This document shows, one piece after another, positions 1 through 31,839 of a stretch of 64,000 nt of DNA; position 1 is the first letter of the stretch, and every line of letters starts with the position of its first letter. Origin of the DNA: Oerskovia flava (GTDB taxonomy: Bacteria; Actinomycetota; Actinomycetes; Actinomycetales; Cellulomonadaceae); assembly GCF_026163685.1 (NCBI RefSeq), contig NZ_JAOXSR010000012.1:1-64000 (forward strand). The letters are read 5' to 3'. Under the pieces are notes generated by a model. It saw only the letters and a program-made list of their open reading frames with translations. It ran no database searches and had not been told where the DNA came from. The translations under genes were made by a program, and so were the position numbers.

Positions 1-1056
1 GCCGGCTTCGATGTCGAGGCAGCGCCCGGAGGCGGGGTTCTTCAGGGTTCCGTTGTTCTGGTGGACCCATTGCTGGGAGGGGTAGCCCCCGCAGTCCCAC
101 AGGTGGGCCTTGGTGCCGTTGGTGGTGCCGCCGGCGACGAGGTCGAGGCACTTGCCGCCGGACTTGAGCGCGGTGCCGTCGAGGGTCCAGTTCATGGCGT
201 CGGCGGTGGTGTTACAGGTCCACTGCTGGATCGCGGTGCCGTTGGTGGTGCCACCGCCGGCGCGGTCGATGCACTTGCCGGACTTGGCGTTCTCGATCTG
301 AGCGTCCGTCGAGGGGTCGGTCGGGTCGGTCGGCTCAGTGGGGTCGGTCGGCTCGGGGTCAGGGTCGGGGTGAGGGTTCCCGGTGCCGCCGTCGAAGGTT
401 ACGTCGCTGCACAGGAAGTACTTCTGGTCCATGTGCGACGCCTTCCAGACGGTCACTACGACGTGGCGCCCGCTGTATCCCGACGTGGTCACGTCGGTGA
501 CGTAGTGCGCCTGATAGCCGTAGCTGCCGGTCTTCTTGACCAGCTCCAGGTCGTCCCAGCCGATCTGCTCGTACAGGGGGTCGAAGCCCTGCTTCGTGAC
601 GTAGACCTCGAGCCAGTCGGCGCCGTGCTGAGCTTCGTCGTAGAGGTCGACGGTGAAGTTGGAGCCGATGCTCTTGGCTACCCATGGGCCGGGGCGGTCG
701 AGCGCTGCGTAGTCGGTCTCGCCGTATCCGCCGGCGCTGCAGATGCGGCCGTCGGGGATGACCTGCTTGTAGTCGTCCCCGGTGTTGTTGGCGTAGACGG
801 CCTTCCACGCTGTGATGGCGTTGGGGTTCTCGTGGTATGTCCGGTAGCACATAGGGTCCTGAGCCTGGTCCGGCTCGTTGCTGCCCCAGCGCTGCAGGCA
901 GCCGTAGTTGCGGGTCTCGGGGGCGATGACCGAGCCGTGCGCAGACGCCTGTGGAGCCTGTGCGACGACGACGAGGGCCATGCCCATCAAGATGGTCAGG
1001 AGTGCGGCGACGCCCATCGCGATGGCGCGGGACGCGGGTGCGAACAAGTGGTTCAT
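1..1056 (-). CDS. Secreted AA10 lytic polysaccharide monooxygenase with C-terminal CBM13 (partial)
   Basis: Copper-dependent oxidative enzyme of family AA10, which cleaves crystalline polysaccharides such as cellulose or chitin outside the cell. The reading frame is open for 352 codons to the left edge, so the C-terminus is missing. The start ATG at 1056 follows GAAGGAAC. A signal peptide (residues 1-39) ends in ASA, placing His40 (HGSVIAPETRNYGC) at the mature N-terminus, as the copper histidine brace requires. The second brace histidine is probably His144 (EAQHGADW). A Pro/Asp/Thr-rich linker (about 227-252) leads to a ricin-B/CBM13 lectin with CLD and QQW repeats. The CBM13 DNA is almost identical to that of the GH49 gene ending at 1679. 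Substrate is not decided by sequence; dextran is not a known LPMO substrate. Confidence 0.9.
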   Translation of the reverse strand, partial: MNHLFAPASRAIAMGVAALLTILMGMALVVVAQAPQASAHGSVIAPETRNYGCLQRWGSNEPDQAQDPMCYRTYHENPNAITAWKAVYANNTGDDYKQVIPDGRICSAGGYGETDYAALDRPGPWVAKSIGSNFTVDLYDEAQHGADWLEVYVTKQGFDPLYEQIGWDDLELVKKTGSYGYQAHYVTDVTTSGYSGRHVVVTVWKASHMDQKYFLCSDVTFDGGTGNPHPDPDPEPTDPTEPTDPTDPSTDAQIENAKSGKCIDRAGGGTTNGTAIQQWTCNTTADAMNWTLDGTALKSGGKCLDLVAGGTTNGTKAHLWDCGGYPSQQWVHQNNGTLKNPASGRCLDIEAG

Positions 1057-1079
1057 GAGGTCGTTCCTTCGGTTCTCGG

Positions 1080-1101
1080 CTGTCAGCGGTTGAGCTGACA
1101 G
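1080..1101. terminator. Hairpin between the DoxX and LPMO genes
   Basis: CTGTCAGC and GCTGACAG form a perfect 8-bp stem around a 6-nt loop. It lies downstream of the DoxX stop and 24 bases upstream of the LPMO start, both on the minus strand. It may end DoxX transcripts or form part of the LPMO leader. There is no U-tract. Confidence 0.45.
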
Positions 1102-1135
1102 GTCGTGCCTGGGGATGACGAGCCTGCGGATGGGA

Positions 1136-1582
1136 TCAGGCATTGCTGCTGTCACTTGTGGTGATCCGTGCAGCGGACTTGGGCCGTGCCGTGAGGGTGA
1201 TCGGCCCGGCGAGGGCCCACCGGCCGGGGCCGAGGGCTGCGACGAGCAGGAAGGCCCAACAGAACAGCGCGGCTTGTTCGCCACCGTTCTGCAGGGGAAG
1301 CAGCCCGTCGGGCTGGTGGTGGACGAAGTAGGCGTAGGCCATCGAGCCGGAGCAGACGACCGCGGCCAGGCGTGTCGCCACGCCGAGCATCACGAGCGTG
1401 CCGCCGACCAGCTGGATCAGCGCGGCCCACCAGCCTGGCCACTGGCCGATGGCGGGGCTCGGGCCGTGTCCTCCGCCGAGTACGCCGAACAGGGTTGCGG
1501 CGCCGTGGCATGCGAAGAGCAGCCCGACGACGATCCGGAAGAGGGCGAGGACGGAACCTTGCGGTGATGAACGCTCCTGCAC
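1136..1582 (-). CDS. DoxX family membrane protein
   Basis: A 148-residue membrane protein of the DoxX/DoxD superfamily, with about four hydrophobic segments (around residues 10-30, 48-70, 74-90 and 104-120). The family is linked to quinone or thiol redox processes, but the role of most members is unproven. The GTG start at 1582 is preceded by AAAGGAG at good spacing. It lies between the LPMO and a GH49 gene on the same strand. A link with LPMO electron supply is conceivable but is only inference from position. Confidence 0.85.
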   Translation of the reverse strand: MQERSSPQGSVLALFRIVVGLLFACHGAATLFGVLGGGHGPSPAIGQWPGWWAALIQLVGGTLVMLGVATRLAAVVCSGSMAYAYFVHHQPDGLLPLQNGGEQAALFCWAFLLVAALGPGRWALAGPITLTARPKSAARITTSDSSNA

Positions 1583-1627
1583 AGTGAGCGCTCCTTTCAG
1601 GAACGGGTAGGTGCGGGACGGAGTGTG

Positions 1628-1667
1628 GAGGTGGCCGCCGGGACAGGCGAGCGCCGACGGCCACCTC
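1628..1667 (-). terminator. Hairpin after the first GH49 gene
   Basis: GAGGTGGCCG (1628-1637) and CGGCCACCTC (1658-1667) form a perfect 10-bp stem with a 20-nt loop. It begins about 12 bases past the stop of the GH49-CBM13 gene on the minus strand, a normal place for a terminator in a high-GC actinobacterium. Confidence 0.5.
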
Positions 1668-1678
1668 GCTGAGTCAGG

Positions 1679-4024
1679 TCAGGTGGTGATGGTCCACTTC
1701 TGGCTGTCCCAGGTGCCGCAGTCCCACAGGTGCAGGCGTGCGCCGTTGGCGGTGGCGCCGGCTTCGATGTCGAGGCAGCGCCCGGAGGCGGGGTTCTTCA
1801 GGGTTCCGTTGTTCTGGTGGACCCATTGCTGGGAGGGGTAGCCCCCGCAGTCCCACAGGTGGGCCTTGGTGCCGTTGGTGGTGCCGCCGGCGACGAGGTC
1901 GAGGCACTTGCCGCCGGACTTGAGCGCGGTGCCGTCGAGGGTCCAGTTCATGGCGTCGGCGGTGGTGTTACAGGTCCACTGCTGGATCGCGGTGCCGTTG
2001 GTGGTGCCGCCGCCGGTACGGTCGATGCACTTGCCGGACTTGGCGTTGATGACCTGGTGGGTGCCGATGCCTGGCCCGGGGTCGGGGTTGGGGTTGGTTG
2101 TGCCCGTGCCCCAGGCGTTCCAGCTGTCCCAGGTGTCCGCGTCGAAGCCGATCCGGCCGAGCTTGTCGGCGGACCAGTTCGTGCCGGCCTTGTCGATCGT
2201 GACCCCGCCGACGGTGTAGTTCTCGACCTTGATGCCGCGGGAGTTGGTGGTCTCGTTGCCGATGGTGACCTTCTGCCCGTCGGCGTTGGTGTACCGCTTG
2301 AGGTGGCTGACCTGGGAGGAGGGGTCCAGGCCGTTCCAGCCGTCGATCTTGAGGTTCTTGATGTGGATGTTCTCGGTGTTCGACAGGGCGTAGATGCGCA
2401 GTGCGCAGTTGGTGGTGCCCTCGACGGTGATGTTCTCGAACCGCATGTTGCGCACCGTGGTCCCGGGGTTCGCCGTCTTCGTCGAGCCCATGTCTTCCCA
2501 GTGGGAGGAGGAGTTGAGGATGCAGGTGTTGTACTTCACGTCCTTCCAGAACATGCGGTTGTGGATGACGTGGGTGTTGGTGACGACGACGTTGTCGATG
2601 TTGCGGGGGGTCCAGCCCCACTGGATGACGGGCCCGTTCTCGTTCTTCCAGATGACGGTGTCGTCGATGTTCACGTCGGAGTGGTACATCTTCAGCACGT
2701 CGTCGTTGGCGTGGAAGAACGTGTTCTTCATGGTGCTGCCGCGGTAGAGCTCGATCCCGTCGGTCTGCCAGTACCAGGACCCGACCTGCTTGTAGTTGTT
2801 CACGCGCATGGAGAACTTGTCCTCGTTGCCGTAGACGACGAACGAGTGGTAGGGCGGCTCGTTGATCGTGACGCCCTGCAGGTCGAGGTGCTGCTGGGCG
2901 TCAGAGGACTCGAACTGCAGCATCTTCACGCAGGTGGCGTGGCAGTTGGAGTCGCCGCTGAGGTGGTTGTAGTTGTTGCGGGTGTCGGCCTCGTAGACGT
3001 ACTGCTCACCGGACAGCACGCCGTATCCGGTGACCTTGTACAGGCCCTGGGTGGCGTGGAAGAACCGGAAGCCGCCCTTCACGTAGGCGCCAGGTGCGAG
3101 GTAGACCCACTTGACGTTGGCAGGCAGGACAGCGTGGTAGTTCGACCCCATGGAGTAGGTGCCGGGCCGGAAGTAGATGATGTCCTGGGTGACGTCGTTG
3201 AGGTTGGTGACCTGCCCGGGGCTCGGGTAGTGGATGCTGCCGGACGCCTCGGTGGGGACAAGGCGTTCCTTCTCAGAACCGGTGAGCAGGGGTTCGGCGA
3301 AGACGAGCACGGAGTTGCGTGGCTCGGTGTGGATTGCGCGGTTGCCCGAGGAGTTGGTGGTGAGGTTGCCGCTGGCACCGGCCATGTCGTTGTACGCGGT
3401 GTACAGCTGCGGGTCGAACTCGACGGAGAAGCGATGGCCGGTCGAGGTGTAGGGCACCTTGATACGGACGGTCGAGCCGTTGACCAGCTGCTTGTCGAAG
3501 TTCAGGTGACGCGGCCGGATGGTGACCTGGTCAGCGGAGGTGAGGCTCTGCCCGGTGCGCAGAGTGACGTCGACCCACACGTCGGTGGCGTACTCGAAGC
3601 TCGACCAGCTCATGGTCAGGTTGGCGCTGGAGGAGAACTCGGCGCCGTCCTCCTTCGAGTACCCGATCTTGCCCTTGCCGCTGCGCGGGATGGACATGTA
3701 CGTGAACGAGTCGTACCGGGTGCCCGGCGCGCCGGCGGTGGCGACCTGGACGTCGTAGAACGACGAGCGGCGCACCTTGTCGCTGGCCGTAGGGCTGGTG
3801 GTGTTGAACTCGTAGTTGTCGTGCCACCAGGTCTGCAGCTGGGCGTTGTCGGCCGTCGATGCCGGGTCTGCGGCGGCCGGTGCGGCGAGACCGGCGAGCG
3901 GCACCGCGGCGGCTACCGGCGGGGCGGGTTGTGCGGATGCGGGTGCGACCAGGGCTGTGCCGGTGATCAGGACCGCTGCGGCGAGTGCGACGAGGCGTCG
4001 TCGATGACGCGGGTGTCGGTGCAT
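1679..4024 (-). CDS. Secreted GH49 dextranase with C-terminal CBM13
   Basis: A glycoside hydrolase family 49 enzyme, expected to cleave alpha-1,6 bonds of dextran outside the cell, as characterised bacterial GH49 dextranases do. It has 781 residues: signal peptide (1-31, ending APASA), GH49 catalytic region (about 60-636), a short Pro-rich linker and CBM13 lectin (about 655-781). The three aspartates known for GH49 are present with exact spacing: Asp422 in QTDGIE, and Asp441 and Asp442 in HANDDV. The ATG start follows GGAGAGGAA. The neighbouring gene is a paralogue with a different C-terminus. Endo- versus exo-action (for example isomaltotriose release) cannot be read from sequence; isopullulanase activity is a less likely alternative. 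Confidence 0.92.
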   Translation of the reverse strand: MHRHPRHRRRLVALAAAVLITGTALVAPASAQPAPPVAAAVPLAGLAAPAAADPASTADNAQLQTWWHDNYEFNTTSPTASDKVRRSSFYDVQVATAGAPGTRYDSFTYMSIPRSGKGKIGYSKEDGAEFSSSANLTMSWSSFEYATDVWVDVTLRTGQSLTSADQVTIRPRHLNFDKQLVNGSTVRIKVPYTSTGHRFSVEFDPQLYTAYNDMAGASGNLTTNSSGNRAIHTEPRNSVLVFAEPLLTGSEKERLVPTEASGSIHYPSPGQVTNLNDVTQDIIYFRPGTYSMGSNYHAVLPANVKWVYLAPGAYVKGGFRFFHATQGLYKVTGYGVLSGEQYVYEADTRNNYNHLSGDSNCHATCVKMLQFESSDAQQHLDLQGVTINEPPYHSFVVYGNEDKFSMRVNNYKQVGSWYWQTDGIELYRGSTMKNTFFHANDDVLKMYHSDVNIDDTVIWKNENGPVIQWGWTPRNIDNVVVTNTHVIHNRMFWKDVKYNTCILNSSSHWEDMGSTKTANPGTTVRNMRFENITVEGTTNCALRIYALSNTENIHIKNLKIDGWNGLDPSSQVSHLKRYTNADGQKVTIGNETTNSRGIKVENYTVGGVTIDKAGTNWSADKLGRIGFDADTWDSWNAWGTGTTNPNPDPGPGIGTHQVINAKSGKCIDRTGGGTTNGTAIQQWTCNTTADAMNWTLDGTALKSGGKCLDLVAGGTTNGTKAHLWDCGGYPSQQWVHQNNGTLKNPASGRCLDIEAGATANGARLHLWDCGTWDSQKWTITT
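1757..2046. repeat. CBM13-coding direct repeat, second copy (first copy at 1-290)
   Basis: These 290 bases match 1-290 in the same orientation, with differences seen only in the stretch around 2008-2018 (three mismatches by eye). Each copy encodes most of a CBM13 lectin, one on the LPMO and one on the GH49 enzyme. Identity including silent positions points to recent duplication or ongoing gene conversion. The first copy may continue past the left edge. Confidence 0.92.
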
Positions 4025-4106
4025 GATGGGTTCCTCTCCTTCGAGGGTCGGGGTGTTGCTCCCGTTTCAGCTCCTGGGGGAGCCGTGCGCCCGCGGTTGC
4101 GGGCGG

Positions 4107-4142
4107 CCGGCGGCACGGGCACGGCTATGCCCGTGCCGCCGG
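4107..4142 (-). terminator. Long-stem hairpin after the second GH49 gene
   Basis: CCGGCGGCACGGGCA and its complement form a perfect 15-bp stem around the loop CGGCTA. It lies between the two GH49 genes on the minus strand. A related hairpin with compensating base changes and the loop CGGCAA occurs at 7577-7612, and the flank GGGAGCCGTGCGCCCGCG is shared as well. The conserved pairing supports an RNA function, most likely transcription termination. Confidence 0.65.
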
Positions 4143-4271
4143 TGGTCGGTGATCGAGCCCTCCTCCGTCGACGACGACGTCGGCGCGCCCGGCGTGGCGC
4201 TCAGGAGGTCTCGTACTTGCGCGGCCCGGTGCCGCCGGACGGCACAGGGCCGCGCTGGTCGGCCGCAGGGG

Positions 4272-7200
4272 TCAGCAGTCGTGTCCGTCGTGGGGGACGT
4301 GCGACGTCGTGCCGCCGGCCAGGTTCGGTCGGGCGGTGGTGGTGACGGTGGCGATCCCGGCGTCGATCGACGTGGTGCGTGCGGCGAACGACTGGAAGGC
4401 GTTCGCGCCGGGCTTCACGTGGGGGAACGTCTTGGTTCCGTAGGCGGTGCTCAGCGTGATCGAGAGCGGGCTGTCACTGGTGTTCTCCGCGCGTACGACG
4501 ACGTACGTCTTGCCGGCCAGGCACCGGGTGCTGGTCGTGACGTCCACGACAGCACCCTCGTCCGTGTCGAGTCCCACGTAGGGCAGGACGACCGGGCCGC
4601 GGGTCCAGTCCATGGCGGTGGCCTGGTTGGTCGAGGCGGAGATGACGTCGAACGCGTTGCTGTCGGAGGTGTCGGTGTCTCGGGCCTGGTTCGTGTCGGT
4701 CCAGTCACCGGCGCCTCCGCCGCCGCGGTAGGGCCCGACGAAGGCGGGGCAGCCGGTGCCCTGCCAGCACTGGGCGCTGTAGATCGGGCGCACGTTGCCG
4801 ATGCCTTCGCCGTCTTCGGCGGCGCTGAACATGGAGACCTGGTAGCCGGCGGTGCGCAGGTCGACTTCGTCGAGCGCGTCGGCGGGAACCGAGCTGATGA
4901 TCTTGCCGCTGGGGATGACAGTCAGCTGGGCGTCGGCGACCCGGGTGAGGTCGGCGTCGTAGGTTCCGCCGCCGAGGCGTGAGGAGTCGTTGCGTCCGTC
5001 CGCGACGACGGCGTACTGCCACGGACCGGCGGCGGAGGTGTTCGTCCCCGGGAGCAGGGGCGTGCGTGCTCTCGAGAACCCGTCGCTGAGGTAGATGTTC
5101 ACCCGCTGGGTGCTCATGCCGTTGCCGCCCCAGGGGTTGCGGATCTCTCCGGCGGTGGAGACCACGAACCGGACGGTGTCACCGTCCTCGTACACGTCGA
5201 GTCCGGTCAGGTCGAAGCTGCCCGGGTTGAAAGCCCCGTCGGAGGGGTAGAGGTAGCTGCCAGGTCCGTGGTCGTCGCCGGCCGGGTCCGGGATGGTGCC
5301 CACCTTGGTCCCGAAAGCGTAGATCGTGAACCGCTGCACGTTCATCACGCCGTTGTCTCCCACGGCCGTGACACGCACGCGGTTGGTGATCTGGTCGAGA
5401 TCGATGTCTGCGGAGAACTGTCCGCCGGTCAGGGTCGCGGGGGTGTCGGTGCCGTTGACGGAGAGGGTGAGCTCGGCGGCGTCCGTGGTGCCGGTGACGC
5501 GCAGTGTCCTCGTCGAGGTGGTCTGGCCGTCCTGCAGCCCGTCGAGGGTCAGGGTCGGGGCGTCGCCGGTGGGCTGGTCGTCGCTGGTGGCGTTCCAGCT
5601 GTCCCAGGTGTCGGCGTCGAAGTCGAGCCGGCCGAGCTCGTCGGAGGCCCAGTTGTCACCGGCCTTGAGGATCGGGATGCCTCCCACGGTGTAGTTGTGC
5701 AGCAGGAGGCCGTCGCCATCCGTGACCTCGTTGCCGATGGTCACCTTGGTCCCGGTCGGGTCGGTGTACCGCTTGAGCAGGTTGACCTGCCCGGACGCGT
5801 CGAGCTCGTTCCACCCGTCGATGTGCAGCCCGTTGATCTCGACGTTCTGCGTGTTCGACAGGGCGAAGACGCGCAGTGCGCAGTTCGTGGCGCCCTCGAC
5901 GCGGGTGTCGGTGAACCGCATGTTCTTCACCGTCGTGGCCGTGTCGGCGCGGTCGGTAGCGCCCATGTCCTCCCAGTGGGAGGAAGAGTTGAAGATGCAG
6001 GTGTTGTACTTGGTGTCCTTCCAGTACATCCGGTTGTGGATGATGTCGGTGTTGATGACGGTCACGTCTTCGATGTCGCGGGGGGTCCACCCCCACTGGA
6101 TGACGGGGCCGTTCTCGTTCTTCCAGATGACGGTGTTCTCGATGTGCACGTCGGAGTGGTACATCTTCAGGACGTCGTCGTTGGCGTGGAAGAACGTGTT
6201 CCTCATCCGCCCGCCGTCGTAGAGCTCGATCCCGTCGGTCTGCCAGTACCAGGACCCGACCTGCTTGTAGTTCTCCACGTTCATCTGGAACCGCTCGACA
6301 CCTACCTCGGTGTCACCGTCGTGGGCGTACACGACGAACGAGTGGTACGGAGGTTCGTTGATCGTGACGCCCTGGATGTCGAGGGTCTGCTGTGCGTCGG
6401 AGGACTCGAACTGCAGCATCTTCACGCAGGTCACGTGGCAGTTGTCATTGACGTTGTGCTCGTAGCCGTTGGTGGTGTCCGCCTCGTACACGTACTGCTC
6501 GCCGGAGAGGACCCCGAGACCGGTGACCTTGTACTGCGACTGGTTGTCGTGCAGGAACCGGAACGCACCCTTCACGTATGCACCGGGCGCCAGGTACACC
6601 CACCTGACGTTCTCGGGGAGCACGGCGTGGTAGGCGGAACCCATCGAGTAGGTCCCGGGACCGAAGTAGATGATCTCTTCGGTGATGTCATCGAGGTTCG
6701 TCACGGAGCCCGGCTGAGGTCGGTAGATGGACCCGGACTCCTCGGTGGGGATGGTGCGCTCGGCTTCGGCGGCGGACGGCTTGGCGTTGGCAAAGATCAG
6801 CATCGCGTTCTGCGGCTCGGTGCTGATCGCACGGTTGCCTGCCGCGTCGGTAGTGAGCGTGCCGCTGCTCCCGGACATGTCGTTGTATGCGGTGATCAGC
6901 TGCGGCTCGAACTCGACCGAGAACCGGTACCCGTCCTCGCTGAAGGGCACCTTGACACGAATCGTGGACTCGTCGACCAGCTGCTTGTCGAGCGCGAGAT
7001 CGGTGGGGCGGATGGTGACCTGTTCGGCGGACGTGATCGCCTGGCCTGTCTTGAGCGTGACGTCGACCCACACATCGGTGGCGTACTCGAAGCTCGACCA
7101 GCTCATCGTCAGGTCTGCCGAGGAGGAGAATTCGGCGCCGTCCTCCTCGGTGTAGCCGAGCTTGCCGTTGCCGCTCCGGGGGACGCTCGTGTACACGAAC

Positions 7201-7496
7201 GAGTCGTAGGTCGTGTCCGGGTCTGAAGCCGTGGTGACCTTCGTGTCGTAGAACTCTGACTGGCGGACCTGGTGGTCGCTGACCGGGTTCGTGGTGGGGG
7301 CAGCATTGTCGTGCCACCAGGTGTGCAACTGATCGGTGTCCGCCGTACTGGCCTCGGCCGTTGCTGCTGGAGCGGGATCGATCGTGGCCGTAGAGGGTGC
7401 CGCCGAGGAGGGCGTGGCGAGCAGGAGACCGGCGAGCAGGACGGCGATGCTGACGGACGCCGTCCCCGTGGCTCGTGGGGTTCGGGCAGTATGCAT
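4272..7496 (-). CDS. Secreted multidomain GH49 dextranase with glucodextranase-type C-terminal module
   Basis: A second, larger GH49 enzyme of 1074 residues. I place the start at the ATG at 7496 because TAGGAGTGG precedes it and a signal peptide (ending about residue 32, ATPSSAA) follows; the open frame extends further upstream. The catalytic region spans about 55-635 with Asp421 (QTDGIE), Asp440 and Asp441 (ANDDV). It continues with an Ig-like domain (about 646-730) and a module starting IPDPAGDDHGPGSYLYP (about 735-980) that resembles the C-terminal binding module of glucodextranase. A final domain of about 90 residues (CLAGKTYVVVRAENTS) is of unknown function. It is paralogous to the adjacent GH49-CBM13 enzyme, so the two probably divide the work on dextran by different carbohydrate-binding parts. 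Confidence 0.9.
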   Translation of the reverse strand: MHTARTPRATGTASVSIAVLLAGLLLATPSSAAPSTATIDPAPAATAEASTADTDQLHTWWHDNAAPTTNPVSDHQVRQSEFYDTKVTTASDPDTTYDSFVYTSVPRSGNGKLGYTEEDGAEFSSSADLTMSWSSFEYATDVWVDVTLKTGQAITSAEQVTIRPTDLALDKQLVDESTIRVKVPFSEDGYRFSVEFEPQLITAYNDMSGSSGTLTTDAAGNRAISTEPQNAMLIFANAKPSAAEAERTIPTEESGSIYRPQPGSVTNLDDITEEIIYFGPGTYSMGSAYHAVLPENVRWVYLAPGAYVKGAFRFLHDNQSQYKVTGLGVLSGEQYVYEADTTNGYEHNVNDNCHVTCVKMLQFESSDAQQTLDIQGVTINEPPYHSFVVYAHDGDTEVGVERFQMNVENYKQVGSWYWQTDGIELYDGGRMRNTFFHANDDVLKMYHSDVHIENTVIWKNENGPVIQWGWTPRDIEDVTVINTDIIHNRMYWKDTKYNTCIFNSSSHWEDMGATDRADTATTVKNMRFTDTRVEGATNCALRVFALSNTQNVEINGLHIDGWNELDASGQVNLLKRYTDPTGTKVTIGNEVTDGDGLLLHNYTVGGIPILKAGDNWASDELGRLDFDADTWDSWNATSDDQPTGDAPTLTLDGLQDGQTTSTRTLRVTGTTDAAELTLSVNGTDTPATLTGGQFSADIDLDQITNRVRVTAVGDNGVMNVQRFTIYAFGTKVGTIPDPAGDDHGPGSYLYPSDGAFNPGSFDLTGLDVYEDGDTVRFVVSTAGEIRNPWGGNGMSTQRVNIYLSDGFSRARTPLLPGTNTSAAGPWQYAVVADGRNDSSRLGGGTYDADLTRVADAQLTVIPSGKIISSVPADALDEVDLRTAGYQVSMFSAAEDGEGIGNVRPIYSAQCWQGTGCPAFVGPYRGGGGAGDWTDTNQARDTDTSDSNAFDVISASTNQATAMDWTRGPVVLPYVGLDTDEGAVVDVTTSTRCLAGKTYVVVRAENTSDSPLSITLSTAYGTKTFPHVKPGANAFQSFAARTTSIDAGIATVTTTARPNLAGGTTSHVPHDGHDC

Positions 7497-7576
7497 AGTG
7501 GTTCCACTCCTAGGGGGTAGGGCGGTGTGATCGGTCATGCTCCCGGGAGGGAGCCGTGCGCCCGCGATGCGGGCCG

Positions 7577-7612
7577 CCGGTGGTGCGGGCACGGCAATGC
7601 CCGCACCACCGG
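7577..7612 (-). terminator. Long-stem hairpin between ROK and GH49 genes
   Basis: CCGGTGGTGCGGGCA and its complement form a perfect 15-bp stem with the loop CGGCAA. It is the sister of the hairpin at 4107-4142. It lies downstream of the ROK regulator and upstream of the GH49 gene, both on the minus strand, and probably insulates the two transcripts. Confidence 0.65.
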
Positions 7613-7743: not shown

Positions 7744-8895
7744 TCAGTGTCGGGGCAGGTCGGACAGGACTGTTCGCTGGATGGCCACGGCAGCAGCGCC
7801 GCGACCCCACAGGGTCGGGTCGTCGTCGAGAATGCGCAGGTCGAGGGGTGAGGCCTCGGGCTGCCGTGCCTGGTCGATGCCGGCGCGCAGCCTCTGCTCT
7901 CCCACGCGAGCGAGGCGGATGCCCTCACCGGTGAGCAGGATGCGCTCAGGCTGGGCGATGTTCGCGACGGCGGCGATCAACGTGCCGAAGGCGTGAGCCG
8001 AGCGCCCGATGATCTGGTCAGCCAGCGGGTTGCCGGCTGCAGCGAGATCGAGGACTTCGTCGTAGGTGACGGCGTGTCCAAGGACCATCGCGGCTTGGGT
8101 GTGGATCGCCTCGGTGGACAGCATCGCGTCGGCGCATCCGCGGTGCCCTTCGGGGCAGGAGGGGCCGAGCGGGTCGAGCGGGAAGTGGCCGAGGAGACCA
8201 ATGCCGGAGTCTGGGCCCGTGACCAGCCGGTCGTGGATGACTAGCCCGCCGCCGACGCCGGCACCGATGGTCAGCGCGGCAAAGCTATGCACGTCCCGTC
8301 CGTCGCCGAACCAGTGCTCGGCTTCCATGAGTGCGTCCAGGTCGTTGGCGATCACCGTCGGGTGGCCCGTGCGTTCTGCCAGGAGCAGCCCGAGGTCGAC
8401 ATCGTGCCAGTGAAGGAACGGCGCACGCTGGACGAGCGTGAAGTCGCGCACGGAGCCACCGAGCCCGACGCCGACGGCCGCCGGAGCGTGGCCGACGGTG
8501 AGGTCGGACACGAGCGCAGCAAGGGCATCGACGACCGACGCCGGGTCCTGAGTCGTGATCTCTTGCGCGCTGGTCGCCAAGACATCCGCCCGCAAGTTCG
8601 TCAGCACACCGTAGGCGCGAGAACCCGTGAGCTTGATGCCCACGAACTGCTGTAGATCCGCGTCCACGTCCAGGGGCTGCAGAGGTCTTCCACCCCCCTG
8701 TACGTGTACCTCGCGCACCTCGTGGAGGACACCTGTGTCCAGCAGCGGCTTGGTGATGCGCGTCAGGCTCGGGGTCGACAGATCGAGGCGCCGGGCCAGC
8801 TCGGTGCGCGCGAGCGGGCCGTGGAGCAGCACCTCCAACGCCACGCGGCGGGAGGTGGGCGACAACGGCGTCCAGGGTGATGCGGTGTCCAGCAC
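7744..8895 (-). CDS. ROK family transcriptional regulator
   Basis: A 383-residue repressor with an N-terminal winged helix-turn-helix (about 13-60, ARTELARRLDLSTPSLTRITK) and a ROK sugar-kinase-like domain. It keeps the ATP-site motif GAGVGGG (211-217), the NDLDALMEAE segment and His237. The usual zinc motif CxCGxxGC is reduced to CPEGHRGC (Cys247, Cys254), with the middle cysteine replaced by glutamate. The GTG start at 8895 follows GAGGAGCGCAG. It is divergent from the sugar ABC transporter and upstream of the GH49 genes, so it most likely senses a dextran breakdown product and represses both directions. Confidence 0.9.
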   Translation of the reverse strand: MLDTASPWTPLSPTSRRVALEVLLHGPLARTELARRLDLSTPSLTRITKPLLDTGVLHEVREVHVQGGGRPLQPLDVDADLQQFVGIKLTGSRAYGVLTNLRADVLATSAQEITTQDPASVVDALAALVSDLTVGHAPAAVGVGLGGSVRDFTLVQRAPFLHWHDVDLGLLLAERTGHPTVIANDLDALMEAEHWFGDGRDVHSFAALTIGAGVGGGLVIHDRLVTGPDSGIGLLGHFPLDPLGPSCPEGHRGCADAMLSTEAIHTQAAMVLGHAVTYDEVLDLAAAGNPLADQIIGRSAHAFGTLIAAVANIAQPERILLTGEGIRLARVGEQRLRAGIDQARQPEASPLDLRILDDDPTLWGRGAAAVAIQRTVLSDLPRH

Positions 8896-9130: not shown

Positions 9131-10420
9131 ATGCGTAAGTACACGGCGGTGCTGGCTGCTGGTTCGCTCGTTCTCGCGCTAGGCCTTGGTGCCTGCTCGA
9201 CCAGCGGGGACGATGCTGGGGGCGCCGAGGACGGCAAGACGCTCAAGATCTGGTGGTGGGAGAACGATGACTCCGCCCTGTCGCAGGCCTGGGACACGGC
9301 GATCGACATCTTCGAAGAGGAGCACCCAGGCGTCGAGGTGCAGTTCGAGCTCAAGACCTACGAGCAGATGCAGCAGTCGGGGCAGCTCATCCTCGACTCG
9401 AACGACGCTCCGGACGTGCTGGAGTACCTCAAGGGCAACGCCACGGCGGGAGTTGTCTCCAAAGCAGGCTTGCTGACCGACCTGACCGACGTCGCCGTCG
9501 AGCGCGGCTGGGACGTGGAGAACACCGCGCAGGATGTCGGCCTGTACGAGGACGGGATCATGGGATCCGGCCAGCGATACGGGGTGACGAACTACGGCGA
9601 GTACGTCGGTCTGTTCTACAACACCGACATGCTCACCGAGTACGACCTGGACACGCCGGAGACGCTCGCCGACCTCGAGACGATCATGCAGACGTTCGTG
9701 GACGACGGCATCACTCCGCTCGCGCTCGGCTCGGCGGACTACCCGGGCCCGCATCTGCTGTACGCACTGGCCCTGTCCCACATGGACGACGACTCGCTCG
9801 CCGCGTTCCAGCAGTTCACGGGCGAGCCTGATTGGACGGCCTGGGAGCGCGCCGCGACAACCTTCACCGAGTGGGTCGACAAGGGATACATCAGCACCGA
9901 TTCCACTGGTATCCCCGCGCAGGACTCGGGCAACGCGTTCGTCGCGGGCCAGTACCCGCTGTTCTACTCCGGCACCTGGTGGGCGGGTAGCTTCACCGCA
10001 GACATCACCGACTTCGCGTGGAACCAGGTCCTCTTCCCAGGGAACGACCTGCACCCGGGCTCGGGCGGCAACCTGTGGGTCGTGCCGGCCAAGGCGAAGA
10101 ACAAGGAACTCGCCTACGACTTCATCGAGATCACCCAGCGACCGGAGGTGCAGAACCAGCTCGGTGACCTGGGAGGTGTTCCGGTGGCCGCTGGGGACAG
10201 CGGAGTGAGCGAGCCGGTCGGCCAGCTCGTCACCGCCCGGTTCAGCGAACTGCTCTCGGGAGAAGGCGGCAAGCTCGCCTGGTACCCCGACTGGCCGGTC
10301 GCCGGACTCAACGACGTCCTGATCGCCCAGACCTCGGACCTGGTCCAGGGCAACGTCGAGCCGGCGCAAGTGGCGTCGAACATCCAGGCCGCCTACGACG
10401 CCGGAAAGCCGCAGGGCTGA
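9131..10420 (+). CDS. Sugar ABC transporter substrate-binding lipoprotein (CUT1)
   Basis: A 429-residue extracellular solute-binding protein of the family that delivers oligosaccharides to CUT1 importers. It is a lipoprotein: hydrophobic leader with lipobox LGAC (Cys22). The mature protein has the family pattern with LKIWWWENDDS at the start, SNDAPDVLEY, and the C-terminal helical part ending in NIQAAYDAG. The ATG follows CAGGAGGT. It is the first gene of the operon divergent from the ROK regulator; the setting next to GH49 and alpha-1,6-glucosidase genes suggests isomalto-oligosaccharides as ligand, which is an inference. Confidence 0.92.
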   Translation: MRKYTAVLAAGSLVLALGLGACSTSGDDAGGAEDGKTLKIWWWENDDSALSQAWDTAIDIFEEEHPGVEVQFELKTYEQMQQSGQLILDSNDAPDVLEYLKGNATAGVVSKAGLLTDLTDVAVERGWDVENTAQDVGLYEDGIMGSGQRYGVTNYGEYVGLFYNTDMLTEYDLDTPETLADLETIMQTFVDDGITPLALGSADYPGPHLLYALALSHMDDDSLAAFQQFTGEPDWTAWERAATTFTEWVDKGYISTDSTGIPAQDSGNAFVAGQYPLFYSGTWWAGSFTADITDFAWNQVLFPGNDLHPGSGGNLWVVPAKAKNKELAYDFIEITQRPEVQNQLGDLGGVPVAAGDSGVSEPVGQLVTARFSELLSGEGGKLAWYPDWPVAGLNDVLIAQTSDLVQGNVEPAQVASNIQAAYDAGKPQG

Positions 10421-10437
10421 ACTCGTCTGCACCAGAT

Positions 10438-10469
10438 CCGGTGGCGCGAGCCAGAGCTCGCGCCACCGG
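10438..10469 (+). terminator. Intercistronic hairpin between binding protein and permease genes
   Basis: CCGGTGGCGCGAG and CTCGCGCCACCGG form a perfect 13-bp stem around CCAGAG, 18 bases past the stop of the binding-protein gene and 19 bases before the first permease. Hairpins here commonly limit read-through or protect the upstream mRNA, giving more binding protein than permease. Confidence 0.6.
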
Positions 10470-10487
10470 GTCACGAAGGAAACGACA

Positions 10488-11438
10488 ATGACCTCGTTGC
10501 CCAGCATGTCCGCCCGCGCGCGTCGTAGCCTCACCACTGAGCGTCCTTCCGGGTACTGGTGGTACATCGTCCCGGGAGCCCTCGGCTTCCTCGCCGTGGT
10601 GCTCGTCCCGTTCGGGATGAACATCTTCTACAGCCTGACGGCATGGAGCGGCGTCGGCGATCCGCAGTTCGTCGGTCTGGACAACTACGCCCAGCTGATG
10701 GGCGACGCCACGTTCTGGACCTCCTTCCGCAACAGCGCCTTCTTCGTCGTCGCGATGGCGATCTTTCCCACCGCGATCGGCGTGCTCGTAGCCGCGGTCC
10801 TCTTCGACTTCATCGCCCCGAGGTTCGGTGCTCGGACCTCGAGTCTGCTGCGCGCACTGTTCTACCTCCCGCAGATCTTGCCGATCGCTGTCGCCGGCGT
10901 GCTGTGGAAGTGGATGTACCAACCCGAGTACGGAATCATCAACACCTTGTTCAGCTCGGTCGGCCTCGACGGGCTACGACAGAACTGGCTCGGAGACTCC
11001 GATCTGGCCATCTACTCGGTGATGAACGTACTCATCTGGCTACAGATCGGATACACGGTCGTGCTGTTCATGGCCGGCTTGTCTCGTGTGGACCCGGCTC
11101 TGCACGAGGCCGCCGAACTCGACGGAGCAGGGTGGTGGCAGCGGTTCCGCATGATCACCCTTGTCCAGCTGCGGCCCGAAATCGCGGTCGTCCTCATCAC
11201 CACGTCGGTGGCGGCGCTCAAGGTGTTCGCGCCGATCTTCGTCCTGACCCGTGGTGGGCCCGGAACAAGCACGATCGTGCCTGCGTACTTCTCCTTCTCC
11301 AACTTCTTCACCACGACCCGTGTGGGGTATGGCGCTGCGGTCGCCACCGTCCTGGCTTTGCTGGTGACGATCATCGCGGTCGCCCTGTTGCGCTACCAGA
11401 CCCGCACCACGGAAGGGTTCGACGATGACGGTCGATAA
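10488..11438 (+). CDS. Sugar ABC transporter permease (MalF-type)
   Basis: A 316-residue inner-membrane permease of the CUT1 family with six predicted helices. The cytoplasmic EAA loop, which contacts the ATPase, reads EAAELDGAGWWQRFRMITL (about 205-223). The ATG is preceded by AAGGAAACG. Its last 14 bases overlap the next permease, so the two are translationally coupled. No ATPase gene is in the locus, so a shared MsiK-type ATPase encoded elsewhere is likely, as is usual in actinobacteria. Confidence 0.92.
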   Translation: MTSLPSMSARARRSLTTERPSGYWWYIVPGALGFLAVVLVPFGMNIFYSLTAWSGVGDPQFVGLDNYAQLMGDATFWTSFRNSAFFVVAMAIFPTAIGVLVAAVLFDFIAPRFGARTSSLLRALFYLPQILPIAVAGVLWKWMYQPEYGIINTLFSSVGLDGLRQNWLGDSDLAIYSVMNVLIWLQIGYTVVLFMAGLSRVDPALHEAAELDGAGWWQRFRMITLVQLRPEIAVVLITTSVAALKVFAPIFVLTRGGPGTSTIVPAYFSFSNFFTTTRVGYGAAVATVLALLVTIIAVALLRYQTRTTEGFDDDGR

Positions 11439-12348
11439 GCTCACCCGCAACGCTGTCGCCTCGCCAGACGGCTCAGTGCCTCCTGCACCCTCAGCGCCAC
11501 TGCGGCAGCGCGGTGGAGCACGTACGCGCCGTCGGGTCAGCGGCTGGGTCGTGCTCATCACGCTCAGCGTGGTGGCGCTGCTGATGATCTTCCCGTTCTG
11601 GATTGCGCTGATCAACGGCTTCAAGCCCGCCGGCGAGTACATCCAGTCCGGCCCGATCTCGATACCCACAGAACTCGACTTCTCCGCGCTGGTCGACTTC
11701 TGGCGAGGAGTCGATTTCAACCGGAAGCTGCTCAACAGCGTGGTCATCTCCGGCAGCGTCGCACTCATTGCGGCAGCGCTGTCCCTTCTGAGCGCGTTCG
11801 CGATCGGCATCGGCAAGCTCAGGGGCCGGGTGTGGATCCTCGCGGTCTTCATGGTTGCTTTCACCATTCCGCAGGAGGCCCTGGTCTACCCGTTGTTCGT
11901 GCTCACGCGCGACCTGGGGCTGTACGACACCCTGACCGGCATCATCATCATCCTCGCCGTACTGCAGAGCGCATTCGGAACCTACATGCTCTCCTCGGTC
12001 CTGGGTGCCTTCCCCAAAGAAGTGCTCGAGGCTGCACGCCTGGACGGCGCGAGTCGGCGGCAGATCCTCGGGCGGGTCGTCCTGCCGCTGACCCGCCCCA
12101 CACTGTCGGTGCTCGTCACCTTCTTCTTCATCTGGACCTGGAACGACTTCTTCCTGCCCCTCATCCTGCTTCCCTCGGCGAAGAACCAGACCGTCTCGGT
12201 CTCTCTCGGCGCACTGTCTGGGCAGTACACCTCGGACCCCACTGCGCTCGCCGCGGCTTCGCTGGCCGGCATCCTGCCCGCCCTGGTGTTCTTCCTCATT
12301 TTCCAGCGCACCCTTATGCGCGGCGTCAACCTCGGCGCTATCAAGTAG
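11425..12348 (+). CDS. Sugar ABC transporter permease (MalG-type)
   Basis: A 307-residue partner permease with six predicted helices and the EAA loop EAARLDGASRRQILGRVVLP. It ends in the typical short MalG-like tail (RGVNLGAIK). The start overlaps the first permease by 14 bases. With the binding protein it forms the importer; together with the downstream GH13 enzyme it indicates uptake of short glucans followed by cytoplasmic hydrolysis. Confidence 0.92.
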   Translation: MTVDKLTRNAVASPDGSVPPAPSAPLRQRGGARTRRRVSGWVVLITLSVVALLMIFPFWIALINGFKPAGEYIQSGPISIPTELDFSALVDFWRGVDFNRKLLNSVVISGSVALIAAALSLLSAFAIGIGKLRGRVWILAVFMVAFTIPQEALVYPLFVLTRDLGLYDTLTGIIIILAVLQSAFGTYMLSSVLGAFPKEVLEAARLDGASRRQILGRVVLPLTRPTLSVLVTFFFIWTWNDFFLPLILLPSAKNQTVSVSLGALSGQYTSDPTALAAASLAGILPALVFFLIFQRTLMRGVNLGAIK

Positions 12349-12361
12349 CACACCACCTACC

Positions 12362-12403
12362 CTCCTGGCCTGGTGCCCACCGCCCCGGTCACCGGGCCAG
12401 GAG
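12362..12403 (+). terminator. Hairpin between MalG-type permease and GH13 gene
   Basis: CTCCTGGCC and GGCCAGGAG pair over 9 bp with a 24-nt loop, in the 110-base gap before the glucosidase gene. It may partly terminate or stabilise the transcript; the downstream gene keeps its own AAGGACC ribosome site. Confidence 0.4.
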
Positions 12404-12458
12404 ATCGCTCGGGCCCAGCAGAACACCGGCCCGCCCGACACACCTCACAAGGACCGCC

Positions 12459-14195
12459 ATGACGCTCACCCAGCCCGACCACGCCGCCACCACCACCGAC
12501 CCCCAGTGGTGGAAGAGCGCCGTGGTCTACCAGATCTATCCCCGTTCCTTCGCCGACTCGAACGCGGACGGCGTCGGCGACCTGCGCGGCATCCGCTCCC
12601 GCCTCGACCACCTGCAGCGGCTAGGTATCGACGTCATCTGGCTCTCACCGATCTACCGCTCACCGCACGCCGACAACGGCTACGACATCAGCGACTACCA
12701 GGGCATCGACCCCACCTTCGGCACCCTCGCCGACTTCGACGCACTCCTCGCCGACGTGCACGCGCGCGGCATGAAGCTCGTCATGGACCTCGTCGTCAAC
12801 CACACCAGCGACGAGCACCCCTGGTTCGTGGAGTCACGCTCGAGCATCGACAACCCCAAGCGCGACTGGTATTGGTGGCGACCAGCCCGTGACGGCTTCG
12901 CACCCGGCGACCCCGGTGCCGAGCCGACCAACTGGGAGTCCTTCTTCTCCGGCCCCACCTGGACCCTCGACGAGTCGACCGGCGAGTACTACCTGCACCT
13001 GTTCGACCCCAAGCAGCCCGACCTCAACTGGGAGAACCCCGAGGTCCGCCACGCCGTCTACGACATGATGCGCTGGTGGCTCGACCGCGGTGTCGACGGT
13101 TTCCGCATGGACGTCATCAACCTCGTCTCCAAGGACACCGCTCTGCCCGACGGTGCACCCGGCGCAACCGGACTCGGCAACGGCTTCCCCCACTACGCCA
13201 ACGGGCCTCGCATCCACGAGTTCATGCAGGAGATGCACCGCGAGGTCTTCGACGGACGAGACGGGCAGTACCTCACCGTCGGGGAGATGCCCGGCGTCAC
13301 CTGGCAGGACGCGGTCCTGTTCACCGACCCGGCGCGGCGCGAGCTCGACATGGTGTTCCAGTTCGAGCACGTCAACCTCGACCACGGACCCGCCGGGAAG
13401 TTCGACCCCCAGCCCCTGGCGCTGCGCGACCTCAAGGCGTCCCTCGGACGCTGGCAGCACGAGCTCGGAACGACCGGCTGGAACAGCCTCTACCTCGGCA
13501 ATCACGACCAGCCACGCAGCGTCTCCCGGTTCGGTGACGACGGCGAGCACTGGCGAAGCTCTGCGACCGCCCTGGCGACCGTCCTGCACCTGCACCGCGG
13601 CACCCCGTACGTCTACCAGGGCGAAGAGATCGGCATGACCAACGCCCCGTTCAGCGGCGTCTCCGCGCTGCGTGACGTCGAATCACTCAACCACTACCAC
13701 CGTGCCATCGCCGCCGGCGCAGACCCCGACGCAGTCATGGCCGCGCTGCGCACCATGGGTCGTGACAACGCCCGCACACCCGTCCAATGGGACGGTACGC
13801 CCCAGGCCGGATTCACCACGGCCACCCCCTGGATCGCGGTCAACCCCAACCATGCCTGGCTCAACGCCGCAGCCCAGTACGACGACCCCGACTCTGTCTA
13901 CAACCACTACCGACGCCTCATTGAACTACGCCACACCCAGCCTGTCGTCGCTCACGGTGACTTCATCATGCTCCTCGCAGACCACCCGAGCGTGTACGCC
14001 TATCAGCGCCACCACGAGGACACCACACTGCTCGTCGTGGCGAACCTCGCCGGCGAGGCAATCGACATCGAGCTGGACGTCGTGGCGTACCACCTGCTCC
14101 TGAGCAACGCCGACGACTACACGGCGCCCATCGACGAGCAGCTCACGCTCCAGCCCTGGGAGGCCAGGGTCTACATCACGACATCCCCCCGGTGA
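12459..14195 (+). CDS. GH13 oligo-1,6-glucosidase / alpha-glucosidase
   Basis: A 578-residue cytoplasmic (no signal peptide) GH13 enzyme that releases glucose from isomalto-oligosaccharides. Conserved regions are visible: DLVVNHTSDEH, GFRMDVINL with nucleophile Asp218, acid/base Glu276 in VGEMPG, and LGNHDQPR with Asp350. The QPDLNW signature (187-192) marks the oligo-1,6-glucosidase group, and Val219 right after the nucleophile is the residue associated with alpha-1,6 rather than alpha-1,4 specificity. I chose the ATG at 12459 (AAGGACCGCC before it); the frame is open much further upstream inside the permease gene. It completes a dextran-to-glucose pathway with the GH49 enzymes and the transporter. 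Confidence 0.92.
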   Translation: MTLTQPDHAATTTDPQWWKSAVVYQIYPRSFADSNADGVGDLRGIRSRLDHLQRLGIDVIWLSPIYRSPHADNGYDISDYQGIDPTFGTLADFDALLADVHARGMKLVMDLVVNHTSDEHPWFVESRSSIDNPKRDWYWWRPARDGFAPGDPGAEPTNWESFFSGPTWTLDESTGEYYLHLFDPKQPDLNWENPEVRHAVYDMMRWWLDRGVDGFRMDVINLVSKDTALPDGAPGATGLGNGFPHYANGPRIHEFMQEMHREVFDGRDGQYLTVGEMPGVTWQDAVLFTDPARRELDMVFQFEHVNLDHGPAGKFDPQPLALRDLKASLGRWQHELGTTGWNSLYLGNHDQPRSVSRFGDDGEHWRSSATALATVLHLHRGTPYVYQGEEIGMTNAPFSGVSALRDVESLNHYHRAIAAGADPDAVMAALRTMGRDNARTPVQWDGTPQAGFTTATPWIAVNPNHAWLNAAAQYDDPDSVYNHYRRLIELRHTQPVVAHGDFIMLLADHPSVYAYQRHHEDTTLLVVANLAGEAIDIELDVVAYHLLLSNADDYTAPIDEQLTLQPWEARVYITTSPR

Positions 14196-31147: not shown

Positions 31148-31839
31148 CACCGGTCTCCCTCGGTCCTCGTCCCCTGTCCGCCGCCCGGCGTGCCACCCTC
31201 GAGCGCCGCGTCCGGTGGATCGTCGCGGCGACGATCGGCTACAACGTCGTCGAGGCGGTCGTCGCGATCACCGCCGGCCGCATCGCGTCGTCGGCGGCGC
31301 TCGTCGGGTTCGGGCTCGACTCGCTCGTCGAGGTCCTGTCCGCCGCTGCGGTCGCCTGGCAGTTCTCCGCCCCCGACCCGCGTCGGCGCGAGCGCACCGC
31401 GGTGCGCATCATCGCGGTCGCGTTCTTCGCGCTCGCGCTCCTCGTCACGGTCGACGCGGTGCGGACGCTGCTGGGAGCCGCCGAGCCGGACCACTCGACC
31501 GTCGGCATCGTCCTCGCCGCCGTGAGCCTGGTGATCATGCCGTTCCTGTCGTGGTTCGAGCGCCGAACGGGCCGTGAGCTCGGCTCGGCGTCCGCCGTCG
31601 CGGACTCCCACCAGACCCTGCTGTGCACGTACCTGTCTGCCGTCCTGCTCGTCGGCCTCGTGCTCAACTCCACCCTCGGGTGGACCTGGGCCGACCCTCT
31701 CGCTGCCCTCGTGATCGCGGCCGTCGCCGTCAAGGAGGGCCGCGACGCGTGGCGTGGCGACGCGTGCTGCACCCCCGCGGGAGCGCTGCTCACCGGCACC
31801 GAAGTCGACGCCTGCGCCGACGGCTGCTGCGGCCCTTGA
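31144..31839 (+). CDS. Cation diffusion facilitator-type transporter
   Basis: A 231-residue membrane protein of the CDF/cation-efflux family with six predicted helices and no long cytoplasmic C-terminal domain. Metal-site candidates are GFGLDSLVE in helix 2 and ADSHQT in helix 5. The C-terminus is rich in cysteine (CCTPAG, CADGCCGP), which fits thiophilic metals. The ATG overlaps the sensor stop (ATGA). It likely exports Cd, Pb or Zn using the proton gradient. Confidence 0.88.
   Translation: MTPVSLGPRPLSAARRATLERRVRWIVAATIGYNVVEAVVAITAGRIASSAALVGFGLDSLVEVLSAAAVAWQFSAPDPRRRERTAVRIIAVAFFALALLVTVDAVRTLLGAAEPDHSTVGIVLAAVSLVIMPFLSWFERRTGRELGSASAVADSHQTLLCTYLSAVLLVGLVLNSTLGWTWADPLAALVIAAVAVKEGRDAWRGDACCTPAGALLTGTEVDACADGCCGP

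Follow-up and report, generated by a model that had tools for sequence, protein, structure and literature searches.

Probable recent copying of a dextranase CBM13 module onto a neighbouring lytic polysaccharide monooxygenase in Oerskovia flava

How do two unrelated enzymes come to carry nearly the same carbohydrate-binding module (CBM), base for base? The question is raised by a stretch of 64,000 nucleotides from Oerskovia flava (contig NZ_JAOXSR010000012.1, here contig C4, positions 1 to 64,000; hereafter the window), in which a lytic polysaccharide monooxygenase (LPMO) of family AA10 and a GH49 dextranase each end in a CBM13. The answer that we favor, and consider rather probable, is that the dextranase CBM13 was recently copied, in that direction, onto the LPMO within a dextran cluster, which would hold both enzymes on the same glucan. 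An initial annotation of the DNA had noticed the match but overlooked that the genes are neighbors in one dextran locus, that the contig end cuts the repeat, and that a direction of copying, from dextranase to LPMO, can be proposed. The two genes adjoin, with one DoxX gene between them, and the features at issue are as follows.

1..291, minus strand: left repeat copy; it encodes the LPMO CBM13 up to residue 97, and the rest lies on contig C9
1..1056, minus strand: AA10 LPMO gene with C-terminal CBM13 (Pfam LPMO_10, Ricin_B_lectin); 3′ end cut by the contig end and completed on C9 31554-31758
292..393, minus strand: Pro/Thr/Asp-rich linker, missing from the relatives, whose frames stop one residue past AA10
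394..939, minus strand: mature AA10 catalytic domain, beginning at the copper-binding His1 (alignment to 6ndq and 4oy6)
1136..1582, minus strand: gene for a DoxX-family membrane protein, between dextranase and LPMO (Pfam DoxX PF07681, E 1.2e-9)
1668..2047, minus strand: right repeat copy of 380 bp, which differs from the LPMO copy at 6 positions and runs from the dextranase CBM13 through the stop codon to 11 nt past it
1679..4024, minus strand: GH49 dextranase with C-terminal CBM13 (Pfam GH49N, GH49, Ricin_B_lectin; nearest solved structure, the 6NZS dextranase)

Two CBM13 copies exist; they are in direct orientation and flank the DoxX-LPMO pair. The near-identity of positions 1-290 and 1757-2046 was correctly described in the initial annotation, with exactly three differences (left-copy positions 253, 261 and 262). 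These had been said to include silent sites, which is true of two, while the third changes a residue. The match of window 1-291 (E 1.2e-145) is far above chance. The hosts had also been named correctly: the LPMO matches LPMO_10 (PF03067, E 7.6e-36, profile positions 1-183 of 183), the dextranase matches GH49 in its N-terminal domain (E 3.4e-88) and its second domain (E 9.8e-46), and both carry Ricin_B_lectin/CBM13. The match is real but the proposed module size of 290 bp is too small, because the window begins at the first base of contig C4. Read across the contig join, the whole repeat (window 1668-2047) is 380 bp long with 6 differences (98.4% identity), and it contains the complete CBM13 (369 bp of coding sequence with the stop codon) and 11 nt past the stop. 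The differences fall in six codons, those at codons 10 and 13 being silent and those at 11, 98, 114 and 115 changing the residue; two of the four altered residues immediately precede the QxW motif of the third repeat. The copies are identical over a 252-bp core (1757-2008), and differences near both edges distinguish them in their different sequence contexts. A search of the genome with window 1680-2056 gave three hits, one in the dextranase copy, one where the window begins and one where contig C9 ends.

Could the left copy have been created by the assembly, as a chimeric contig end? It does lie at a contig end (window base 1 is base 1 of C4), and the genome is a 4.11 Mb draft of 22 contigs. 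Contig C9 ends inside the repeat at 31758; its last 216 bases (31543-31758) match window 1668-1883, and its last 127 are exactly the first 127 of C4. Such exact 127-base overlaps are systematic in this assembly, being found in nine pairs of contig ends, C9/C4 included, with one further pair overlapping by 192. The nine exact overlaps point to a de Bruijn assembly with k=127 that would have broken off in a repeat exceeding k. When 43 of the 44 contig ends were compared (all but the end of C22), the C4 start and the C9 end matched each other only; 21 pairings among six ends of three short contigs, which matched over all 300 bases, were dropped as uninformative. The initial annotation had pointed to the sequence left of the window as a check, and C9 supplies the rest of the left copy in frame: the LPMO frame is continuous from AA10 through the linker and, over the join, through a complete CBM13, and it terminates at the codon where the dextranase frame does. 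Given this continuity, the systematic overlaps and the differences near both edges of the repeat, we regard an artefact as hardly credible.

If both copies are genuine, then the question is to which enzyme the module belonged. The CBM13 was scanned against about 85,000 species genomes, a collection in which the source genus is represented by this genome alone. Eighteen loci were returned, from which L057 (33% identical, Acidobacteria) was set aside. All 17 kept relatives (64-72% identical) stand behind a GH49 domain, in Streptomyces, Saccharothrix, Actinokineospora and one genome labelled Nocardia. A same-strand AA10 gene lies downstream in 16 of the 17 loci, at about 0.25-0.75 kb in the 11 Streptomyces loci, and its product is 79-87% identical to the window's AA10 in Streptomyces and 54-59% in the others. 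None of these 16 linked AA10s carries a CBM; all end one residue past the AA10 domain, as does a solitary copy from S. microflavus (L107). The same gene order, with AA10 downstream, is seen in three of three chromosome-length contigs of the Streptomyces group. DoxX was matched by BLAST in 11 of the 16 loci, with a fragment in L056 besides and a DoxX-like frame, by eye, in L040; no DoxX match was found in S. fumanus (L042). Comparison of both modules with related genomes, which the initial annotation had proposed, was thus informative even though the collection holds no sister genome: with 17 of 17 relatives on GH49 and 16 of 16 AA10s without a CBM, it is well supported that the CBM13 was the dextranase's and that the LPMO would have gained its copy here. 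One locus of the set (L056:2782-4307, Streptomyces sp. ISL-36) has an interrupted GH49-CBM13 frame followed by the DoxX fragment only, with no AA10, which might reflect decay of the locus or poor assembly.

Closer to the source organism, 98 of the 221 genomes of its family, counting this one, match the CBM13 at E <= 1e-20, the best outside this genome being 53% identical among the matches listed. Closer fragments, which fall below this cut-off, begin contigs C2 and C13 of the relative G184; one is 79% identical over 19 residues and follows a GH49 domain, and the other is 93% identical over 28 residues. The two lie on different contigs, and their origin from a single gene is an assumption. The GH49-CBM13 gene of G184 is also broken inside the CBM13; no match covers the middle part of the module, which might there too be a repeat or have dropped out of the assembly.

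How recent is the copy? The two CBM13s differ at 2 of 86.3 silent sites (0.023), as against 75.2 of 386.7 (0.194) when this GH49 is compared with its closest counterpart found in the family, the GH49 of G184 (91% amino-acid identity). Judged by these silent divergences, and assuming similar rates, the copy would clearly be younger than the split from G184. By eye, with G184 and Streptomyces-type sequences as outgroups, ancestral-looking residues are Ala11 and Ser98 in the LPMO copy and Ser115 in the dextranase copy; Asp114 agrees with G184, and the other outgroups vary there. Both copies thus appear to have changed since the duplication, a pattern that does not suggest ongoing conversion. One could alternatively envision that two old CBM13 copies are kept alike by ongoing gene conversion, with which the full identity of the 252-bp core would agree. 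We consider this quite improbable, because the 16 linked AA10s without any CBM do not support an old copy on the LPMO, and because the private amino-acid changes seen by eye in each copy mean that ongoing conversion is not needed. Of the very recent transfer or gene conversion first proposed, the recent copying therefore stands and the continuing conversion is dispensable. A comparison of synteny between C9 and contig C13 of G184 by tblastx gave scattered fragments under one joint E-value and was not counted.

The recipient gene likely starts at 1054-1056 and is the sole AA10 found in this genome at E <= 1e-20; oxidative polysaccharide cleavage by its product is predicted from membership of the AA10 family. 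A search of the genome for a donor of the linker gave only short similarities to other low-complexity stretches and no clear source. An AA10 tree of 64 rows was built from 20 dextranase-side AA10s (this one included) and L107, together with 43 others that include 4OY6 and 6NDQ; the family is represented by the 29 best fetched loci of its E <= 1e-20 matches, L114 having been dropped by a length filter. The 20 dextranase-side AA10s and L107 separate on one branch from the 43 others with support of 100/99; the tree was midpoint-rooted for drawing, and "clade" is a valid term only with the root outside the group. Residues were compared with 41 of the 43 others, the long branches L126 and L127 being left out. 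Trp35 is replaced by Tyr, Arg53 by Ala and Gln169 by Lys in 21 of 21 group members, whereas the others have Trp in 39, Arg in 36 and Gln in 39 of 41. The copper-brace residues His1 and His108 (4OY6 numbering) are kept in all 21 and all 41, cleavage at His1 being taken from the alignment.

In the 221 family genomes (E <= 1e-20), the other AA10s reach at most 56% identity to this one, and the tree places the 29 that it includes outside the group. In a sample of the order (396 genomes, this one included), no other match was found at E <= 1e-72, a cut-off so stringent that the most distant members can escape it (one has E 4.1e-72). Of 392 genomes from the genus of Streptomyces fumanus, seven gave a match to this AA10 type at E <= 1e-95, with frames 226-246 aa long. 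GH49, sought at E <= 1e-150, turned up in exactly these seven genomes, and the two genes are neighbors in each. Four of the seven had already been reached through the CBM13 search and three are independent of it; these genomes share descent and the genes are linked, so hypergeometric figures overstate the evidence. Genome G222, to which S. microflavus locus L041 belongs, contains a second, solitary dextranase-side AA10 (L194:4099-5196), with no GH49 in 12 kb and, by eye, open reading frames (ORFs) nearby that resemble phage or plasmid primases.

We propose that the ancestral core comprised, in this order, a GH49 dextranase ending in a CBM13, DoxX and an AA10 LPMO consisting of a single domain. 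The 380-bp stretch (the dextranase CBM13, its stop codon and 11 nt beyond) would, in this lineage, have been duplicated and joined in frame to the LPMO through a new Pro/Thr-rich linker, giving AA10-CBM13. The two CBM13s likely bind the same carbohydrate, as first suggested, and the likeliest role of the module on the LPMO would be targeting to the substrate of the dextranase. LPMO and dextranase might then be held on the same glucan, the LPMO oxidizing the same material and staying bound, and DoxX might, as a guess, serve redox or copper supply at the membrane.

Several points weigh against this proposal. The C9-C4 join is read from contig ends, and the same contigs would result if the DoxX-LPMO-CBM13 unit were present in two or more tandem copies, or if GH49-CBM13 led straight into C9 while the 1756-bp unit (DoxX-LPMO-CBM13) formed a circle of its own; the repeat forms a loop (CBM13, DoxX, LPMO, CBM13), of which a single pass would be the simplest reading. 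Among the relatives, L056 has no AA10 (1 of 17 loci), and five non-Streptomyces loci have their AA10 about 2 kb off, with room for other genes between (the gap was inspected in L040 only). The group member L107 is not beside a GH49, with no GH49, DoxX or CBM13 match in its 12 kb, and therefore the linkage is not absolute. Finally, past the shared 11 nt, the LPMO-side 3′ flank is slightly like the flank of the G184 CBM13, though not significantly (47 of 500 shuffles were as good), while the dextranase-side 3′ flank is unlike it (309 of 500), so that either copy may stand in the original 3′ context.

Because of this likeness on the LPMO side, we retain as a rival a route by recombination, in which a resident GH49-CBM13 locus received DoxX-LPMO by insertion or underwent tandem duplication together with it. 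The CBM13 would then be a direct repeat flanking a 1756-bp unit; both copies would be equally old and neither a donor, the LPMO fusion would be a by-product of the junction, and the unit could loop out or amplify. If it were excised, GH49-CBM13 followed by the C9 flank would remain. Such a route would account for the direct orientation of the copies around DoxX-LPMO and for the state of G184, which has the GH49 (91%) without an AA10 of this type (best 52%) and whose CBM13 end is followed by the flank that slightly resembles that of C9. On the other hand, the order GH49-CBM13-DoxX-AA10 is already present in Streptomyces, and therefore no insertion is needed; the 11.8 kb of C9 that were searched hold no second DoxX or AA10 remnant, and the flank similarity is not significant. 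We judge recombination unlikely, albeit the most serious competitor to directional copying.

The genes around the pair are consistent with a role in glucan use.

4272..7592, minus strand: another GH49 gene, carrying glucodextranase B and C domains in place of CBM13 (Pfam)
7744..8895, minus strand: ROK-family protein, likely a sugar-responsive regulator
9131..12348, plus strand: ATP-binding cassette (ABC) sugar transporter (binding protein 9131-10420; permeases 10488-11438 and 11425-12348)
11832..14195, plus strand: ORF whose catalytic domain, of the GH13 alpha-amylase family, starts at about 12531 (Pfam Alpha-amylase, E 8.2e-159)

The true start of the GH13 ORF is probably near 12350, and its product is likely an alpha-glucosidase. 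On the minus strand, the order of transcription is the GH49 gene with glucodextranase B/C domains (7592-4272), GH49-CBM13 (4024-1679), DoxX (1582-1136) and AA10-CBM13 (1056 into C9). The dextranase matches PF17433 and PF03718 and scores 1055 bits to 6NZS, a similarity from which activity on alpha-1,6-glucan may be expected; its CBM13 (PF00652 at residues 657-777, profile 4-126 of 126) is a three-repeat Ricin_B_lectin. From these families, the locus would be a dextran or isomalto-oligosaccharide utilization cluster. G184 has the same pair of GH49 genes. A scan found no promoter-like sites on the C9 end or in window 1000-4400, and no terminator-like sites on the C9 end; four of the latter occur in window 1000-4400, versus a mean of 2.0 in shuffles. 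Elsewhere on C9 (L004:3933-6629), a DnaB replicative helicase of 898 aa contains an insertion of about 400 aa with a weak LAGLIDADG match (21.5 bits, cut-off 22.5), which is thus probably an intein.

What might the LPMO act on? We advance, tentatively and with more doubt than conviction, that the dextranase-side AA10s are a distinct LPMO clade, fed by DoxX, whose target is neither chitin nor cellulose but insoluble alpha-glucan (of alternan-like or mutan-like type, or branched dextran), and that this LPMO took the CBM13 of the dextranase for the same target. An AA10 acting on alpha-glucan would, to our knowledge, be the first. Alternatively, the AA10 may share the niche of the dextranase but attack chitin or cellulose. 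Dextran is soluble, and an LPMO would be more plausible on insoluble glucans. Mutan and alternan are termed insoluble, and growth on dextran and alternan is described as limited to isolates with a predicted GH49, in the available portion of PMC11475409. The AA10 review PMC10154629, in the part at hand, gives chitin and cellulose as the substrates and CBMs of families 2, 3, 5, 10, 12 and 73 as the modules, mostly crystal-surface binders; the term CBM13 is absent from its main text, as far as that part extends. Two dextranases are counted in the CBM13 survey PMC11212257, the accessible sections of which make no mention of AA10, LPMO or monooxygenase. A literature search, with most subscription journals outside its reach, found no title on an LPMO in a dextranase cluster; it also found no precedent for an LPMO with DoxX, for CBM gene conversion or for CBM3 shuffling in Caldicellulosiruptor. 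In that genus, near-identical CBM3s are common to neighboring genes. The exchange of modules among carbohydrate-active enzymes is a known kind of event; it is the combination of AA10 with a GH49-type CBM13 that appears to be new. The locus would present a module transfer between two enzymes of one cluster caught early, with donor and recipient identifiable. The larger interest lies in the association of a group of AA10 LPMOs with GH49 dextranases; if an alpha-glucan substrate proved true, it would extend the LPMO range and bear on the breakdown of dextran- and alternan-type biofilm glucans.

Compared with known systems, the parts are familiar. The best solved relatives of the LPMO by sequence, 4OY6 (which we take to be ScLPMO10B) and 6NDQ, belong to the same family and have the copper-brace histidines, but they lie outside the dextranase-side group, which has fixed changes such as Trp35 to Tyr and Arg53 to Ala. 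The CBM13s of alpha-galactosidase 3A21 and xylanase 1ISV are of the same CBM13/ricin-B type and are more distant than the GH49-borne relatives. The catalytic part of the window's GH49 aligns without gaps over all 577 residues with DexKQ of Arthrobacter oxydans KQ11 (PDB 6NZS); DexKQ is a two-domain structure, in the main text of which (PMC6723167, as available) neither "CBM" nor "carbohydrate-binding" occurs, whereas the window's dextranase has a CBM13. Modular AA10s with CBM2, 3, 5, 10, 12 or 73 share the AA10-plus-CBM design, and the LPMO described here has a CBM13 instead.

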